A DNA stretch of 47,546 bases from Deltaproteobacteria bacterium (lineage in GTDB: Bacteria; Myxococcota; Myxococcia; Myxococcales; 40CM-4-68-19): contig VBKL01000125.1 of NCBI GenBank assembly GCA_005879805.1, forward strand, positions 1 to 47,546, in the 5' to 3' direction. Below the pieces are notes generated by a model, which made no database searches, was not told the origin of the DNA, and saw only the letters and a list, made by a program, of their open reading frames with translations. The position numbers and the translations under genes are program-made. Of the stretch, positions 7,525-39,458 are shown in pieces (position 1 is the first letter of the stretch; every line of letters starts with the position of its first letter).

Positions 7525-8424
7525 CTACTTTGCCCCCGCCCGGGGCGGCGCGGACGATTCCCGCCGCGGCTCGATCCGGAGAACACCGTCGATCACCTGG
7601 AATCGTCCCCCGGGTACGTCCAGGGCGGCACGGGGCTTCACCAGCAAGCCGACCATCTGCTCGAGGTGCGAGCGCTCGGGCCGCAGGATGCCCGCCGATG
7701 CGGCGAGCAAGCACCGGCGCGCTAGAGCAGGAGGCAGACGGGCGAGCGCCAGGGCGTCCAGGCCGCCGGGCACTTCCGCTTCTCGCAACGCCCCCGAAGC
7801 GAGCGTCTGGAGCAGCGCATCCTCGTCCGCCGCGATTCGGGCCGACCCGGCCAGCGCTTGTTCGAGCCGCGGGCCGAGGGCTTCCAGAAGAGCAGGCCAC
7901 ATCGCGCGCAGCCGGGCACGAGCTCGTTGCGGATCGGAATTGTGAGGGTCTCGGCTGAAGGAAAGGCAGAGCCTCTCGCAAAGCGTCTCGGTGGCCTCGC
8001 GCGACACGTCGAGGAGAGGTCGCACGAGACGCACACCGGAAGGCAAGACGCGATACCGCCGGATTCCCGCCAGCGCGCCGGGGCCTGCCCCTCGCGCGAG
8101 CCTGAGGAGGATCGTCTCCGCCTGGTCCCTGCGCGTGTGCGCGGTTGCGATCCGGTCGCACTCCGCCTCGCGCGCGAGCGTCGCAAGCGCCTCGTACCTC
8201 GCCTCGCGCGCGGCGGCCTCGAGCCCGAGAGCGCGGATTTCCTCTCTGAGCGATCGGAGCCGGACGATGCGTAACGGGACCTCGAGCGTTGCGGCGAGCT
8301 TCGCGACGCGTTCGGCATCCTCGGGAGCGTCGGCGCGGAGCGCGTGGTCGACGTGGCATTGCTGCGCGTGGGAGATCCTGTAGTTAGAACAGGGTCCTAC
8401 GACGCCGATCGTGACGGCGCGCAC
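7525..8424 (-). pseudogene. tilS: tRNA(Ile)-lysidine synthase lacking its N-terminal ATP-binding loop
   Basis: From VDHALR onward the frame is clearly TilS (a segment with EARYEAL, then AHTRRDQAET near residues 96-105, and a C-terminal substrate-binding region). TilS converts the wobble C of tRNA-Ile(CAU) to lysidine. The family N-terminus with the SGGxDS pyrophosphatase loop, normally some 40-60 residues upstream of this point, is absent; the 24 codons ahead show no resemblance to it and no frame upstream carries it. The break is near 8362, about 12 bp from a palindrome at 8374-8396. The gene is therefore truncated or the assembly is misjoined. It is normally essential unless tRNA-Ile(UAU) or another tilS is present. 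Confidence 0.8.
8374..8396. repeat. Palindrome with CCTGT-N7-ACAGG core at the tilS break
   Basis: An 8-bp stem (GATCCTGT / ACAGGGTC, one G-T pair) with a 7-base loop sits just beyond the last recognisable tilS codon. A second CCTGT-N7-ACAGG copy with a related spacer occurs at 9093-9109, so the pair bounds the gene-poor patch. It may be an operator or a mobile-element end; the sequence alone does not decide. Confidence 0.5.
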
Positions 8425-13843: not shown

Positions 13844-14875
13844 ATGAGGACTTCGAATCTGCAACGCGTGCTCGCCCGGCTGACCGCCATCGCGGTCACC
13901 GTGGGCGCGAGCGCCGCGAGCGCCAGCACCATGAGTGTTTGCGTCGACAGGGGCAACGGCGAGATGCGCGCCGTCATCTCCAACCGCTTCTGCCACCGTG
14001 ACGAGACGTTCCTGACGCTCGCCGCCTGCACCGACAGCAACTGCAGCGACTTCCGCGGTCCCGCCGGCCCCGCCGGCCCCCAAGGCGCCGCAGGCCCGGT
14101 GGGAGCTGTCGGTCCCAAGGGCGACATCGGCCCCGTGGGTCCGCAGGGCGCCGACGGCGTCGCCGGTCCGGTCGGTCCGATGGGCCCGATGGGCCCTGCC
14201 GGACTCCAGGGAGCAAAGGGCGATACGGGCCCGCAGGGCGTCGCCGGCGTAGCCGGTCCGACCGGCCCGCAGGGCCCCGCTGGCGCGGTCGGCCCCATCG
14301 GTCCCCAAGGACCGCAGGGCCTCCCGGGCGACGTCGGACCGCAGGGTGTCGCGGGTGCGACGGGACCGCAGGGTGTCGCGGGTGCGACGGGACCGCAGGG
14401 CCCCGCAGGTCCGATGGGTCCGCAGGGTCCCGCGGGCTCCGGTTCGGCGGTCTCTGGCAATGCCAGCGTGATCGCCTATGCCGACAGCGTGTTCACCCGC
14501 CACTTCCTGCCGGCCGGTTCGCCGCTTCCCTCCACCGTGGCCACGCTCGATCTGAGCCCCGGTAACTGGGTCATCGTGGGCAAGGGCATGGTTTCCGCGC
14601 TCGCGGAGTCGCCGACCGCCGAGGCAAGCTGCACGCTCGTGAGCGGCATCGGCGGCACCGGCCCGAGCCTCGACTACCACTCGGTGGCGATGCACCTCAA
14701 CGTGCACAACACGCTCACGATGGCCGCTCCGTTCACCGTCGTGGGCAGCTCGGACGGTCACCTCGAGCTCCAGTGCCAGACGCTGGATACGACCGACGGC
14801 ATGGTCGAGAACGCCCAGATCTGGGCGGTGCAGGTGGGCACGCTCAACACCACCGTCTCGCACCCGAGCTTCTAG
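13844..14875 (+). CDS. Secreted collagen-like (Gly-X-Y) repeat protein
   Basis: 343 residues. A signal peptide (1-29, ending ASAAS-AST) is followed by a short Cys-containing domain (four Cys between 33 and 67), an uninterrupted run of about 43 Gly-X-Y triplets (about 72-199; many GPQ and GPA), and a 140-residue C-terminal globular domain with two Cys. Bacterial collagen-like proteins form trimeric triple helices, usually with a C- or N-terminal trimerisation domain; the C-terminal domain here may play that role (inference). AGGGAGGA lies 5-6 bases before the ATG. The gene converges on kce and shares the CTAG stop overlap. Confidence 0.9.
14339..14392 (+). repeat. Exact 27-bp tandem duplication inside the collagen region
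   Basis: Two identical adjacent 27-bp units beginning CCGCAGGGTGTCGCGGG encode two identical 9-residue (three-triplet) blocks. The lack of any synonymous difference points to a recent slippage duplication that keeps the Gly-X-Y phase. Confidence 0.9.
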
Positions 14876-15699
14876 GCCCGGGCAGGGATTCGCAGGAGCT
14901 GGCGCGCGCGCGCGGGGGTCGCGATTTCGCGTCCCGCCGCGCGCGCCAGCTTCGAGAGCTCCGCGACGAGCTCGTACGAGCCCTTCGCGAGGACGCCCTT
15001 CGACAGATAGACGTTGTCCTCCAGGCCGCAGCGTGCGTGGCCGCCCATCCGGAGCGACAGCTCCGCCATGGGAAGCTGGAAGCGGCCGATCCCCGCGACG
15101 TTGAAGCTGCAGCCGGGGGGAAGCTTTCCGACCAGGAAGCGCAGGTTCTCTTCCGTCGCGGCGATACCACCGCGAACCCCCATCACGAAATCGAAATGGG
15201 CAGGCAGGTCGATGACGCCCTGGCCCGCCAGCCAGAGGCAGCTCTCGATGTGTCCCGCGTCGTAGCACTCGAGCTCCGGGACGATGCGCTTCTCGCGCAT
15301 CCGCGCCGCGAACTCACGGACCATCGGAAACGGATTGAGGAAGACGTCCTCGCCGAAGTTGAGCGATCCTGCGTTGAGGGTCGCCATCTCCGGATTGCAG
15401 TCGAGCGGCTGCGCGCGTTCCGCGGCGCTCATCCCCACCGCTCCGCCGGTGCTCGTCTGCACGATGACGTCGCAGCGGGCGCGAATGGCGCGGATCGCCT
15501 TGTCGAAGAGCGCGCGATCCTGCGTGGGCGTCCCGTCGTTTTTGCGCACGTGCAGGTGGATGACCGAAGCACCCGCCGCCGCACACCTCGCGGCCTCCTC
15601 GCCCAGCTCTTCGGCGGTGATGGGCAAATAGGGCGTCTGCTCGCGAGTCGTCTCGGCGCCGCAGATCGCCGCGGTGAGGATGGCAGGCTCTGTCTGCAT
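14872..15699 (-). CDS. kce: 3-keto-5-aminohexanoate cleavage enzyme (BKACE family)
   Basis: 275 residues, matching the DUF849/BKACE TIM-barrel family: [20 protein letters not shown] at the start, the zinc-binding HLHVR with following DGTPTQD, the QTSTGG segment, and the late [12 protein letters not shown] loop. In lysine fermentation Kce uses acetyl-CoA to convert 3-keto-5-aminohexanoate into 3-aminobutyryl-CoA and acetoacetate. BKACE members differ in substrate, but cotranscription with kamD, kamE and kal fits the lysine role. I used the ATG at MQTEPAIL; an earlier start would add 13 unconserved residues. Confidence 0.9.
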
Positions 15700-15747
15700 G
15701 GGTCCGGGAAGCTTCCAACTTCCCGGCCCCGAGTTCAAACGGCTCTG

Positions 15748-19757: not shown

Positions 19758-19892
19758 CTACCGCCCGTACGTCGCCGTGAAGGTCGCCTGGGCGATGGCA
19801 TTCGCGCGGGTCACGAATCCGACCAGCGCGCCTGTCGCGTTGTCGGGGATCCCGGCCACGGCGGGATCCTTGAGATTGGCCACCTTGAGCGC
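19758..19892 (-). pseudogene. Out-of-frame C-terminal remnant of the second PEBP domain
   Basis: 45 codons in a different frame from the PEBP gene read ALKVANLKDPAVAGIPDNAT and continue to FTATYGR-stop. This matches the end of the first PEBP domain of the same protein (ALKVADLGLDNTAPGALV... FTANYG). The middle of domain 2, about 88 codons in domain 1, is missing between the two parts. The tail would belong to the upstream gene if the lost piece were restored. Confidence 0.85.
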
Positions 19893-20641
19893 AGCACGAG
19901 ACTCCGCGTGCCCGTCGGCGGAGTCGACCAGTGCAATTCGGGAGACGTATTGGAGCCGGTGCAGCCGAACTGGTTGTAAACCTGTGGAGTCGGAATCGTG
20001 CCGCTCGTAATCGTGTTGCTCGCGAGCGTGAACCCCGGGGCGGTGGGAACCGGGGGATGGGACGTGGGCGGCCCCTGGATCCCGTAATTCGCCGTGAAGC
20101 TCGCGCTCGCGATCGCGTTCCCCTTCGCGGCGAAGCTCACCAGCGCCCCTGGCGCGGTATTGTCGAGGCCAAGGTCCGCGACCTTCAGCGCGTGGATCGT
20201 GAAGACGTACCGATGCGCGGGATCGCCAGCAGGAGGGCACGGGCCGCCATAACCATTGCTGGCGAAGTCGGTAAAGCCCTGGATCGTCCCCGCCGGCGCG
20301 AGGCTTGCGCTCAGGCTGCCGGCATTCTTGGGCAGCGACCTCGCCGACGCGGGAATGTTGAACACCGCCCAGTGCCAGAACCCGCTCCCGGTCGGGGCGT
20401 CGGGATCGTGCACCGTGATGGCGAAGCTCTGCGTGCCCGAAGGCGGATTCGACCAGCGCAGCTCGGGTGAGACGTTCCCGCCGGTACAGCCGAAGACGTT
20501 GGCGACCTGTTCGGTCTGGATGGCCCCGTTCGCGATGTCCGGGCTGGAGAGCGTGAAGTCGCTGCTGCCGCAGCCCGCCGCGAAGAGGGCGACGGCGAAA
20601 CCGGAGTGCAGGATCGTTCGGATGGCCTGCGCGACGTTCAT
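19811..20641 (-). CDS. YbhB/YbcL (PEBP) family lipoprotein with a broken second domain
   Basis: 276 residues. The signal peptide ends in the lipobox FAAGC (Cys24). Residues about 28-190 form a complete PEBP domain with SPELRWSNPP, the ligand-site DPDAPTG, HWAVFNIP and GYGGPCPP. A second domain starts (FTLASNTITSG, SPELHWSTPP) but after TRSL the frame runs into 22 unrelated residues and a stop. The proper C-terminus follows in another frame. PEBP proteins bind small anionic ligands; the bacterial role is unclear. AGGAG lies 7 bases before the ATG. Confidence 0.88.
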   Translation of the reverse strand: MNVAQAIRTILHSGFAVALFAAGCGSSDFTLSSPDIANGAIQTEQVANVFGCTGGNVSPELRWSNPPSGTQSFAITVHDPDAPTGSGFWHWAVFNIPASARSLPKNAGSLSASLAPAGTIQGFTDFASNGYGGPCPPAGDPAHRYVFTIHALKVADLGLDNTAPGALVSFAAKGNAIASASFTANYGIQGPPTSHPPVPTAPGFTLASNTITSGTIPTPQVYNQFGCTGSNTSPELHWSTPPTGTRSLVLRSRWPISRIPPWPGSPTTRQARWSDS

Positions 20642-20665
20642 GTTGCGGCTCCTGGTCGAGGTGGT

Positions 20666-20696
20666 GCGGCGGCGTGTAGCACACCAGCGCCGCCGC
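20666..20696 (-). terminator. GC-rich hairpin between the toroid-protein and PEBP genes
   Basis: A perfect 9-bp stem (GCGGCGGCG / CGCCGCCGC) with a 13-base loop lies 25 bp after the stop of the toroid-protein gene. There is no T tract, so it may be a weak terminator or a 3'-end stabiliser. Confidence 0.35.
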
Positions 20697-20721
20697 CTGC
20701 ACCTTCTTCCACGCGAGCCGG

Positions 20722-21828
20722 CTAGGAGGGACGCCCGCCGGCGTGGGGCCGGATCGCCAGGGTGATGAGCGAGGCGGCAGTGCAGAAGGTGGTGCTGGTG
20801 ATGCAGTGGTCGCCCCTCCAGGTCCCGTCGTCGCGCTGGATCTGAGCGAGGCGCACGCGCATCTCCTCGTGGAAGGTAGCGAACTCGGCGCCGCCCACCG
20901 CGGCCTTCGCCTCGGCCGTCATCATGTAGGAGACGTGCTCTTCGCCGCCGTAGGTCCCGAATCCGCGCATCAGCCGCTCGTTCGCGAGCTGGCCGCCGAC
21001 GCCCTGGGCGACCGCCTCCGCCTTGTGCTTCATGTCGCGGCTCCCTTCGGGTGAGGCGGGGGCCGCGGCCCTCACGCGCGCGGCGGCGATGACGCTGGCG
21101 GCAGCGGAGTAGAGGTCGACGCCGGCGCTCTCGCGATTGTCGAAGCTCTTCGTCTTCTCGTCGTACTTCCCCATCAGATTTGCATCGGCGCGAGCCAGCT
21201 TCTTCTGGTCGACCTTCGCTCCCGCGACGCTGGCGGCGTGAAGGCCATTTGCGGCGAACGCGCTCGACAAGAGAGGTGCCCAGCCGTCCTTGGAGAAGCT
21301 GCCGTCGGCTTGCTGGGCGCGCTCGATGCGCCGCACGCAATCAGCGAGAGCGGCCTCGGCGGCGCCGCGGCCGTCGCGCGGCAACGTCGGGAGCGCCTCG
21401 GCGAGGAACTGCGCGGCGAGATAGGTGTCCACGTTGCGCCCGAGCTTGCGCTGCGGAAGCGTGCCCGGCTCCTGCACCGCGATCTGATCGGCAGGCGCGT
21501 GCTGCACCGCCGAGACCACGTACTCGACCGCGCGCCGGGTCCGGGCCTGGAACTCGCCTTGCGACCCGGTATGCCCCATCCGGATGAGCGCGATCCCGGC
21601 GATGGCGGTGGTGGCGACGTCGGGGCTCTGCGAATGGGTTTCGGCGCCCCAGCTTCCGTCCTGGTTCTGCGCGGCTACCAGCCACTGCAGCGGGCGATCG
21701 AGGTCGAGCGCGTCGCGATGGGCTTCTTGGGGCTTGACGTCCCGCGGCATGGGACGCCGCGGACTGGTACCGAAGGCAGCAGCGGAGAGGAGAACGACGG
21801 CACAACTACCGACCAACAGGGTTTTCAT
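20722..21828 (-). CDS. Secreted prenyltransferase/squalene-oxidase-repeat (alpha-toroid) protein
   Basis: 368 residues with a signal peptide (about 1-20). It carries QW-type repeats typical of alpha/alpha toroids: AAQNQDGSWGAE near 52-63, RAQQADGSFSKDG, and QRDDGTWRGD near the C-terminus. I do not see the DXDD motif of squalene-hopene cyclases, so a terpene cyclase activity is not supported; related secreted proteins use the fold for binding. The middle has an Ala/Lys-rich linker. It lies 59 bp downstream of aroG on the same strand. Confidence 0.75.
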   Translation of the reverse strand: MKTLLVGSCAVVLLSAAAFGTSPRRPMPRDVKPQEAHRDALDLDRPLQWLVAAQNQDGSWGAETHSQSPDVATTAIAGIALIRMGHTGSQGEFQARTRRAVEYVVSAVQHAPADQIAVQEPGTLPQRKLGRNVDTYLAAQFLAEALPTLPRDGRGAAEAALADCVRRIERAQQADGSFSKDGWAPLLSSAFAANGLHAASVAGAKVDQKKLARADANLMGKYDEKTKSFDNRESAGVDLYSAAASVIAAARVRAAAPASPEGSRDMKHKAEAVAQGVGGQLANERLMRGFGTYGGEEHVSYMMTAEAKAAVGGAEFATFHEEMRVRLAQIQRDDGTWRGDHCITSTTFCTAASLITLAIRPHAGGRPS

Positions 21829-21887
21829 GGGAGGGAACCTTTCGTCGAAGGGCCTCCCTTCCGGAACGCGCGGTTGCCCACCCGGAT

Positions 21888-22952
21888 CTATCGGTCGGCG
21901 AGGACCAGCCGCCGGTTCCGCACGGCTTGTGCGAGCCCTTCGAGGAGGCCGATGCTGTCCTCCCACCCGAGACACGGGTCGGTGATGCTGCGGCCGTACT
22001 CGAGCGGCTTGTGCGGCGCGAGGTCCTGCCGGCCCTCCTGGAGATGCGACTCGACCATGACCGCGACGATCCGGTCGTCGCCGCGCGCCACTTGCGCTCC
22101 CACGTCTCGCGCCACGTCGAGTTGCAGCTTGTGCTGCTTGCGCGCGTTGGCATGCGAGCAGTCGATCATGACCCTCGCCGCGAGACCCGCCTGGCCAAGC
22201 TCCTTGCACGCCGCCTCCACGCTCGCGGCATCGTAGTTCGGCGCTTTGCCCCCGCGCAGGATGAGGTGGCAATCCTCGTTGCCATTGGTGGACACGATCG
22301 CCGAGCGCCCGGACTTGGTGACCGAGAGGAAGTGGTGGGGGCTCGTCGCCGCCCGGATGGCATCCACGGCGATGCGCACGTTCCCGTCGGTGCCGTTCTT
22401 GAAGCCGACCGGCGAGGAGAGCCCGGAAGCGAGCTCGCGGTGTACCTGCGACTCGGTCGTGCGCGCGCCGATCGCGCCCCAGGCGATCAGGTCGGCCGTG
22501 TACTGGGGCGTGATGGTGTCGAGGAACTCGGTCGCGCAGGGCAGCCCTAGCGAGGTGATGTCCGCGAGCAGGCGGCGGGCGAGCCGCAAGCCCTCGTTGA
22601 TCTCGAAGCTGCCGTCGAGGCGCGGGTCGTTGATGAGGCCCTTCCAACCGACGTTGGTGCGCGGCTTTTCGAAATAGACGCGCATGACGACGAACAGGTC
22701 CGCGCCGAGGCGATCGACCTCGGCCCGAAGCCGCGTCGCGTAGTCCAGCGCCGACCGCGGATCGTGGATCGAGCAGGGCCCGACCACCACCAGGAGCCTG
22801 TCGTCGCCCCCGACCAGGATGCGGTGGATGGTCTGGCGCGCCGCGTACACCCCGGCGGCCATCTCTTCGGAAGCGGGAACCTCCCGCAGCACCTGCTCGG
22901 GCGGAGAAAGCTCCTTGATCTCCCGGATGCGGACGTCGTCGATTGGCTTCAT
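21888..22952 (-). CDS. aroG: 3-deoxy-7-phosphoheptulonate (DAHP) synthase, class I
   Basis: 354 residues, the AroG/F/H length. Motifs are VVVGPCSIHDPRSALDYA, YFEKPRTNVGWKGLINDP, GFKNGTDGNVRIAVDAI, an IDCSHANARKQ segment and VAVMVESHLQEG. It joins phosphoenolpyruvate and erythrose-4-phosphate, the first step of the shikimate pathway, and such enzymes are normally feedback-inhibited by aromatic amino acids. The ATG is preceded by TGGAG. No other shikimate gene is adjacent; the gene lies between a DUF3365 haem protein and a toroid protein. Confidence 0.96.
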   Translation of the reverse strand: MKPIDDVRIREIKELSPPEQVLREVPASEEMAAGVYAARQTIHRILVGGDDRLLVVVGPCSIHDPRSALDYATRLRAEVDRLGADLFVVMRVYFEKPRTNVGWKGLINDPRLDGSFEINEGLRLARRLLADITSLGLPCATEFLDTITPQYTADLIAWGAIGARTTESQVHRELASGLSSPVGFKNGTDGNVRIAVDAIRAATSPHHFLSVTKSGRSAIVSTNGNEDCHLILRGGKAPNYDAASVEAACKELGQAGLAARVMIDCSHANARKQHKLQLDVARDVGAQVARGDDRIVAVMVESHLQEGRQDLAPHKPLEYGRSITDPCLGWEDSIGLLEGLAQAVRNRRLVLADR

Positions 22953-22978
22953 CACGCTCCAGATGCTCCGCCGGCCGG

Positions 22979-23506
22979 CTACTTCGCGGCCTCCGCCCAC
23001 CAGAATCCCCGCAGGTCGCCGAGGGCATATCCGAAAGACTGGTCGCGCGGGTAGGCCGCTTCGAGCCAGGCGCGGGTGCTCTCCGCCACTTCCGCGCGGT
23101 CGGCGTGGCAGGACAAACACCGCTTGCGGATCTCGATCGGGCGCAACAGACCCACGCGGTCGCCCAGATCGAAGACGGCCGGTTCGACCTCGGAAGCCTT
23201 CTTGCCGTCCGTCTGCGCGAGGTAAGCCTTCGCCCACCCCGGAGGAGCGTTGCGCGGGTTGCGCAGCCGCGCGCTCGTGCGGCCCACCTCCACGCCCGGG
23301 GGCCCGCGGACGCCCTCGCAGCGGGAGGCGTTCGCGTCCGGGTCCCCTTCGCCGAATCGCCGCTCCGCATCGCAGGCGGCGGCGCGGATGGCGGCCTCGG
23401 CCGAGGCGAGCCCACGGCGGAGCTGCGCCGGCGCTTGCGCGGGCGCGAACTGCGACGGCGTGGGCCCGGCGAGGAGCAGGACGAGAGCTGCGAGAGCGAG
23501 TCGCAA
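22979..23506 (-). CDS. DUF3365 (Tll0287-like) c-type haem protein, exported
   Basis: 175 residues with a signal peptide (about 1-20), one CxxCH haem site (CLSCH, 130-134), and the DUF3365 hallmark RTSARLRNPRNAPPGW near 77-91. Members are periplasmic haem sensors or electron carriers. The start is TTG with GGAGG 5 bases before it. It lies between the kdd-mobA chimera and aroG with short gaps (33 and 26 bp), so cotranscription is likely. Confidence 0.82.
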   Translation of the reverse strand: MRLALAALVLLLAGPTPSQFAPAQAPAQLRRGLASAEAAIRAAACDAERRFGEGDPDANASRCEGVRGPPGVEVGRTSARLRNPRNAPPGWAKAYLAQTDGKKASEVEPAVFDLGDRVGLLRPIEIRKRCLSCHADRAEVAESTRAWLEAAYPRDQSFGYALGDLRGFWWAEAAK

Positions 23507-23539
23507 AAGAGCCTCCGCAGCATTTCATACGACGGCCGA

Positions 23540-24907
23540 TCAGAGCGTCGCAATCCGCGCCAGGTCCGCGCGGGTATCAGCGTCGAGAAACGGCTTTTCG
23601 TCCGCCCAAGGCACCTGTGCGGTGCGCACCGCGTCGAGGAGCCGTCTCGGGCCGACCGACCCCTCGCGGAGAGCGGCGGTGGCCGCGGGCAGACAGATCT
23701 CCCGCCGGTACACCGCGCAGAGCGGTTGCAAATGCCCGCCGTTCACCGGAACGGCGGCGTCGTGGCCCGCGAGGGCCGCGAAGAGCGCCTCGAGAAGCGA
23801 CGGATCGACGGCGAAGGGCATGTCTCCGCCGCAGCAGAACGCGATCTCGGCGGTGCTCACCGCGAGCCCCGCTTCGATACCCGCAAGCGGCGTGGAGACG
23901 AGGGCGCGATCCCGGATCAGTCGCGCATTGCCGCTGAAAGACCCATAGCGGGAGGGCTCCTTGGCGACGAGCAGGACGTCCGCGAATCGCTTGGCGCAGG
24001 CGCGCATGAGGCGGACGTCCTTTCCCACGCCCTCGGCCCCGAGGGCCGCGGCGGTGAAGCTCGTGGCCATGCTGAAGAAGAGGACTTCCCCTCCCTCGCG
24101 AGCGGCGAGGATGCTCGCCATCTCGGTCCCGGGAACGCTCGCGCAGTTGACCACCAGATCGAAATCGCGCGCCTTCTCGAAGAGCTCCAGCGGCTTCGTT
24201 GCGTCAGCCTGCACCGCGGCGTCGGCGAGCCCTTCCTTCACCAGCCGCTCGGCAGCCGCTCCCTCGTAGTCGAGCGCCGTCACGTGCGCGGAGAGCTTGC
24301 GGGCCTGCGCGGCGGCGAGCGATCCGCTCTTCCCCGCTCCGAGGACCAGGACCCGCATCCCGGGCTTCACCAGCCGCGCCACCCAGGCGGGCGCGCCGCA
24401 CACGTCGAGGACCGCGAGCGACATCTCCAGCGGCAGATCCTCCGGCAAGGGCGCCCACAATCCGCTCGCGAAGAGCACAGCCTTTCCGCGCACCGCGAGG
24501 CGCTCCGCCTTCGGCTCGACCGAGACGACCTCGTCGAGGATCAGGGGCGTCAGCGTCAAGGAGACGAGCGTCGCGATCCGATCGCCGGCCTTCAGCTCGG
24601 AGGCCGCGGGATGCCCCGGCCCGATGCGCGCGACGCGTCCGATGAGCATCCCACCCGACCCCGTAACCGGATTGTGCATCTTGCCCCGGTTGCGCACGAT
24701 CGCCGAGACGAAGCCCGCGAGCACTCGCGGCTCCTTCTCCGCTTGCTTCCAAAGCTGCCGGAAGCTCGCGGCGTCGATGTTGAGGTGCTCCACGTCGATG
24801 AGCAGCTCGTCGTCGCCGAGGGGCATCGTCGGATCGAGGACCTCCGCCTGCTGCGGCAGGACGCCCTTGGGCTCCACCACGCGGCGCAGCCCGTACGGGT
24901 CAGGCAT
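23540..24907 (-). CDS. kdd: Chimera: 3,5-diaminohexanoate dehydrogenase fused to C-terminal MobA-like domain
   Basis: 455 residues. Residues 1-298 are Kdd: [38 protein letters not shown], the nucleotide loop [10 protein letters not shown] (187-195) and [17 protein letters not shown]. Kdd oxidises L-erythro-3,5-diaminohexanoate with NAD. The family C-terminus (about 35 residues) is missing. From about 302 the sequence is the C-terminal two-thirds of a MobA-type nucleotidyltransferase: [30 protein letters not shown] (360-365), [10 protein letters not shown]. The MobA N-terminal GGxSxRxGxDK loop is absent, so that half should be inactive. The join is near 24010. The ATG overlaps the slipin gene by 8 bp. 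Confidence 0.88.

Positions 24908-38915: not shown

Positions 38916-39458
<543 letters not shown>

Follow-up and report, generated by a model that had tools for sequence, protein, structure and literature searches.

The apparent fusion of kdd to mobA in the window, i.e., the whole analysed stretch of 47,546 nt, is almost certainly an artefact of assembly, in which about 200 bases were lost where two ordinary genes adjoin. The organism very probably has kdd and then mobA as adjacent, co-oriented genes like those of its relatives; the assembly would have left out the last part of kdd together with the first part of mobA and closed the gap. Generally, one in three random joins stays in frame, and here the reading frame would have been kept by chance, so that a single ORF of 455 codons appears. 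Clean losses of this kind, roughly 195–230 bases long, occur at many other places in the assembly, and the kdd-mobA case drew attention among them because the frame happened to be kept across its join. The features discussed here are collected in Table 1.

Table 1. Positions in the window of the kdd-mobA ORF, its parts and two related genes
Feature	Position	Strand	Basis or remark
kdd-mobA ORF	23540-24907	minus	ATG at 24907, 455 aa, open throughout
Kdd part, residues 1-300, without the last 34 residues	24008..24907	minus	NF052381, PDB 7dl3, identity to the Kdd of G001
Join of kdd and mobA	24006..24007 (about)	minus	one-gap DNA alignment with the same-genus relative; protein alignments stop or begin there
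MobA part, without the first ~35 residues (nucleotide-binding loop)	23540..24006	minus	NF011056, TIGR02665, identity to the MobA of G001
Kce-type (BKACE) gene, next step of the Kdd pathway	14872..15738	minus	PF05853, 332 bits; same contig as the Kdd part
Adenylate kinase gene (adk), broken	39005..39443	minus	~195 nt lost at about 39207-39217, frame changed; same contig

The initial annotation described a lysine-pathway dehydrogenase, Kdd, joined near residue 300 to the molybdenum cofactor guanylyltransferase MobA, with a frame open across the join. Both points were confirmed by an exact ORF and by family matches, and the strand, which had been left unstated, is the minus strand. The NCBIfam model of Kdd (NF052381) gave 236 bits against a cut-off of 200, with the model spanning only residues 6–181. 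The solved Kdd structure PDB 7dl3 was aligned with residues 5–302 (E 2e-64), and the Kdd part shared 75% identity with the Kdd of the same-genus relative, G001, uninterrupted over residues 1–300. Residues from about 299 to 452 corresponded to MobA from about its residue 35 (NF011056, E 2e-19; TIGR02665, E 2e-11) and were 58% identical to the kdd-adjacent MobA of G001. The TIGR02665 score of the ORF was 44 bits, below the curated cut-off of 151.85 bits, as were the scores of the intact MobA proteins of G001 and G003 (93–94 bits). As judged from sequence, the similarity of the two halves to Kdd and MobA is far beyond chance.

The ORF differs from both families by what is absent at the join. It resembles the known Kdd proteins (NF052381; PDB 7dl0, 7dl1, 7dl3 and 7dl7) along residues 1–300, but the last 34 residues, which read TIGNGYARGHAELALELVRSTPALQRLFAARVG in the same-genus relative, are not present; the initial annotation had estimated this loss as 35 or so residues. 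The absent tail includes the motif GNGYxxGH, in which G, N, G and H are conserved in 99% and Y in 95% of 83 Kdds. In the same way, the final ~150 residues align with the kdd-adjacent MobA of the relatives (TIGR02665), but the first ~35 residues are missing together with the nucleotide-binding loop GGxSxRxGxDK (GGRSARFGSDK in the relative), which is present in those MobA proteins and whose absence had been correctly pointed out. At the DNA level, the window lacks 203 nt as compared with G001, in one clean segment composed of the last 34 kdd codons, the overlap of the two genes and the first ~35 mobA codons.

When the whole genome was searched with the G001 segment and its flanks, the 203-nt piece was not found elsewhere; the search gave the flanking kdd sequence here and, beyond it, only short matches of the chance type, and the possibility that the missing piece lies on another contig was thus rejected. 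Loss mediated by a repeat was likewise rejected, since no sizeable direct repeat, long enough for deletion or for k-mer collapse, exists at the join. The junction ambiguity was 0 nt here and mostly 0–6 nt at the other losses described below.

The two genes are intact in most relatives of the family, in this order on one strand and often abutting. G001 and four members of the family (G002, G003, G005 and G008) have kdd followed by mobA on one strand, abutting or overlapping, and the kdd stop overlaps the mobA start (ATGA) in G001. In G007, G009, G010 and G011, mobA is located farther downstream of kdd, from a few hundred bases to about 2 kb, and the kdd frame of G011 is interrupted. Among the relatives that have names, the nearest are metagenome-assembled genomes with the label Deltaproteobacteria or Myxococcales. 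A Kdd-MobA fusion was not found in the other genomes searched (99 relatives, and the 80 loci kept from a separate contig search). The initial annotation had named intact genes in this order in a relative as one half of the result that would speak against a real fusion, and this half was obtained. As a separate observation on the locus, the window contains a DAHP-synthase-like gene and others at 19758-23528, between mobA and a gene at 19.2–19.75 kb. The mobA end of G001 directly adjoins the counterpart of the latter gene, and therefore ~3.8 kb was either inserted in the window or lost in G001.

Losses of the same kind recur in this assembly. Sampled stretches of the source genome, 825 kb in total, were screened against 833 kb of G003 and 440 kb of G005 at the protein level, because a DNA-level scan for clean losses is too insensitive at this divergence. 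No N characters were present in the 825-kb sample. Besides kdd-mobA, nine distinct clean losses of about 195–231 nt were detected (133 genes shared with G003), one of which was seen from both strands and hence listed twice. The ten refined sizes, including kdd-mobA, were ~195, 203, 206, 213, 215, 218, 221, 226, 228 and 231 nt, as measured against relatives at 55–90% protein identity; the mean was 212.8 nt with an SD of 12.1 nt, computed with adk and the phosphoglycerate kinase gene (pgk) each counted twice. The reading frames across the losses were mixed. The rate was nine in ~50,000 aa compared, or ~6 per 100 kb of coding sequence, from which the total for the whole assembly is extrapolated, as a rough figure, to a few hundred.

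Two of the broken genes are the only copies in the genome. In adk, about 61–67 residues of the middle are absent as judged from the syntenic regions of G005, G003 and G002, and a PF00406 search of the genome gave no other adenylate kinase. The only copy of pgk (C155:17052-17986) lacks ~206 nt, corresponding to profile positions 269–344. The sole-copy status of both genes holds for a genome that is 88% complete, in which an intact second copy on an unassembled stretch is possible. A bacterium without both adk and pgk is not expected to live. Other genes with losses include those for LptF/LptG (lptF/G), a glycogen-debranching-type enzyme, a GH57 protein, a histidine kinase, a GGDEF protein and an M28 peptidase. 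In addition, a TilS-like gene of the window (7585-8418, minus strand) looks damaged at its N-terminus, at 8.3 kb: the SGGxDS region that G005 and G003 have there is unreadable in any frame. The spacing to its upstream gene is about normal and the size of the damage is unassigned, so this gene was left out of the loss count.

The relatives do not have this class of loss in the comparisons made. The reverse screen of G003 gave no loss of the ~195–231-nt class, and only gaps of 63–84 nt inside alignments. In that of G005 the class was again absent; a 111-nt gap within an alignment, located in an ORF that runs antiparallel to known genes, and a difference of 88 nt were the only entries. G003 and G005 compared with each other in both directions were also free of it. 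When G005 ORFs were compared with the source genome, none was listed; adk was absent from the list though its loss is visible in the direct comparison with G005, probably because the overlap filter removed the ORF containing adk. The adk loss was seen again with the ORFs of G002.

Two readings in which the deletion is real were weighed against loss during assembly. A deletion of ~200 bp in the lineage might have fused two dead halves into a pseudogene. Only one local event would be enough for it, as kdd and mobA are neighbours in relatives, and the contig has no N and both flanks of the join read cleanly. This explanation, however, needs about nine further real deletions of nearly equal length, including those in the sole adk and the sole pgk, and it would leave a genome with several molybdopterin oxidoreductase genes without any recognisable MobA. 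A second MobA that makes the loss harmless was looked for and rejected, as the two best other NTP-transferases of the genome score best as MocA/DVU_1551-type. From these two findings, it is unlikely that the organism has lost its only recognisable MobA. We consider a real deletion leaving a fused pseudogene highly improbable, and the proposal in the initial annotation that a deletion had fused the adjacent genes was not supported.

Even less probable, to the point of being barely credible, is a real deletion that left a working or repurposed chimera, in which the MobA piece serves as a replacement C-terminus of Kdd. The single open frame, the high identity of the Kdd part to that of the relative and the kce-type gene on the same contig are in keeping with such a protein. 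On the other hand, the near-invariant tail motif of Kdd is gone, the architecture appears in no other genome searched, and similar losses are present elsewhere in essential genes; the suggestion that the Kdd half still works with MobA residues found no support. As a side observation, PF12544 (lysine 2,3-aminomutase C-terminal domain) has its only match in the genome at C286:2772-2948, where only positions 2–60 of 127 are aligned; the match may have been shortened by a loss of the kind described here, or it may just be divergent.

Loss in assembly, which the initial annotation had offered as the other choice, accounts for the intact gene pair in relatives, the nine losses of similar length and the damage to the sole adk and pgk. 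We infer a technical cause because the losses are uniform in length, have mixed frames, affect single-copy essential genes, are gathered in one assembly and are absent from its relatives. The narrow size range suggests, as a matter of speculation, library geometry as the source; as the 825-kb sample has no N, possibly the two mates of a pair were merged with the unsequenced part between them left out, or Ns were stripped from scaffold gaps. Local assembly errors are a known class in metagenome-assembled genomes, and read-mapping tools have been made for detecting errors in draft assemblies, e.g., CRAQ (PMC10582259). The losses described here are like those errors in being short, internal and able to break or fuse genes, but their size range (about 195–231 nt) and frequency seem unusual to us.

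These results remove a false gene fusion, and the kdd-mobA ORF is not to be regarded as a fused gene. They also flag this 5.02-Mb draft assembly of 291 contigs for recurrent loss of ~200 nt, despite its acceptable-looking completeness (88%) and contamination (0.6%), and any fusion, truncation or frameshift that appears in it should not be taken for biology. Checking the sole copies of essential genes for losses of the same type within one assembly is a cheap and general test.
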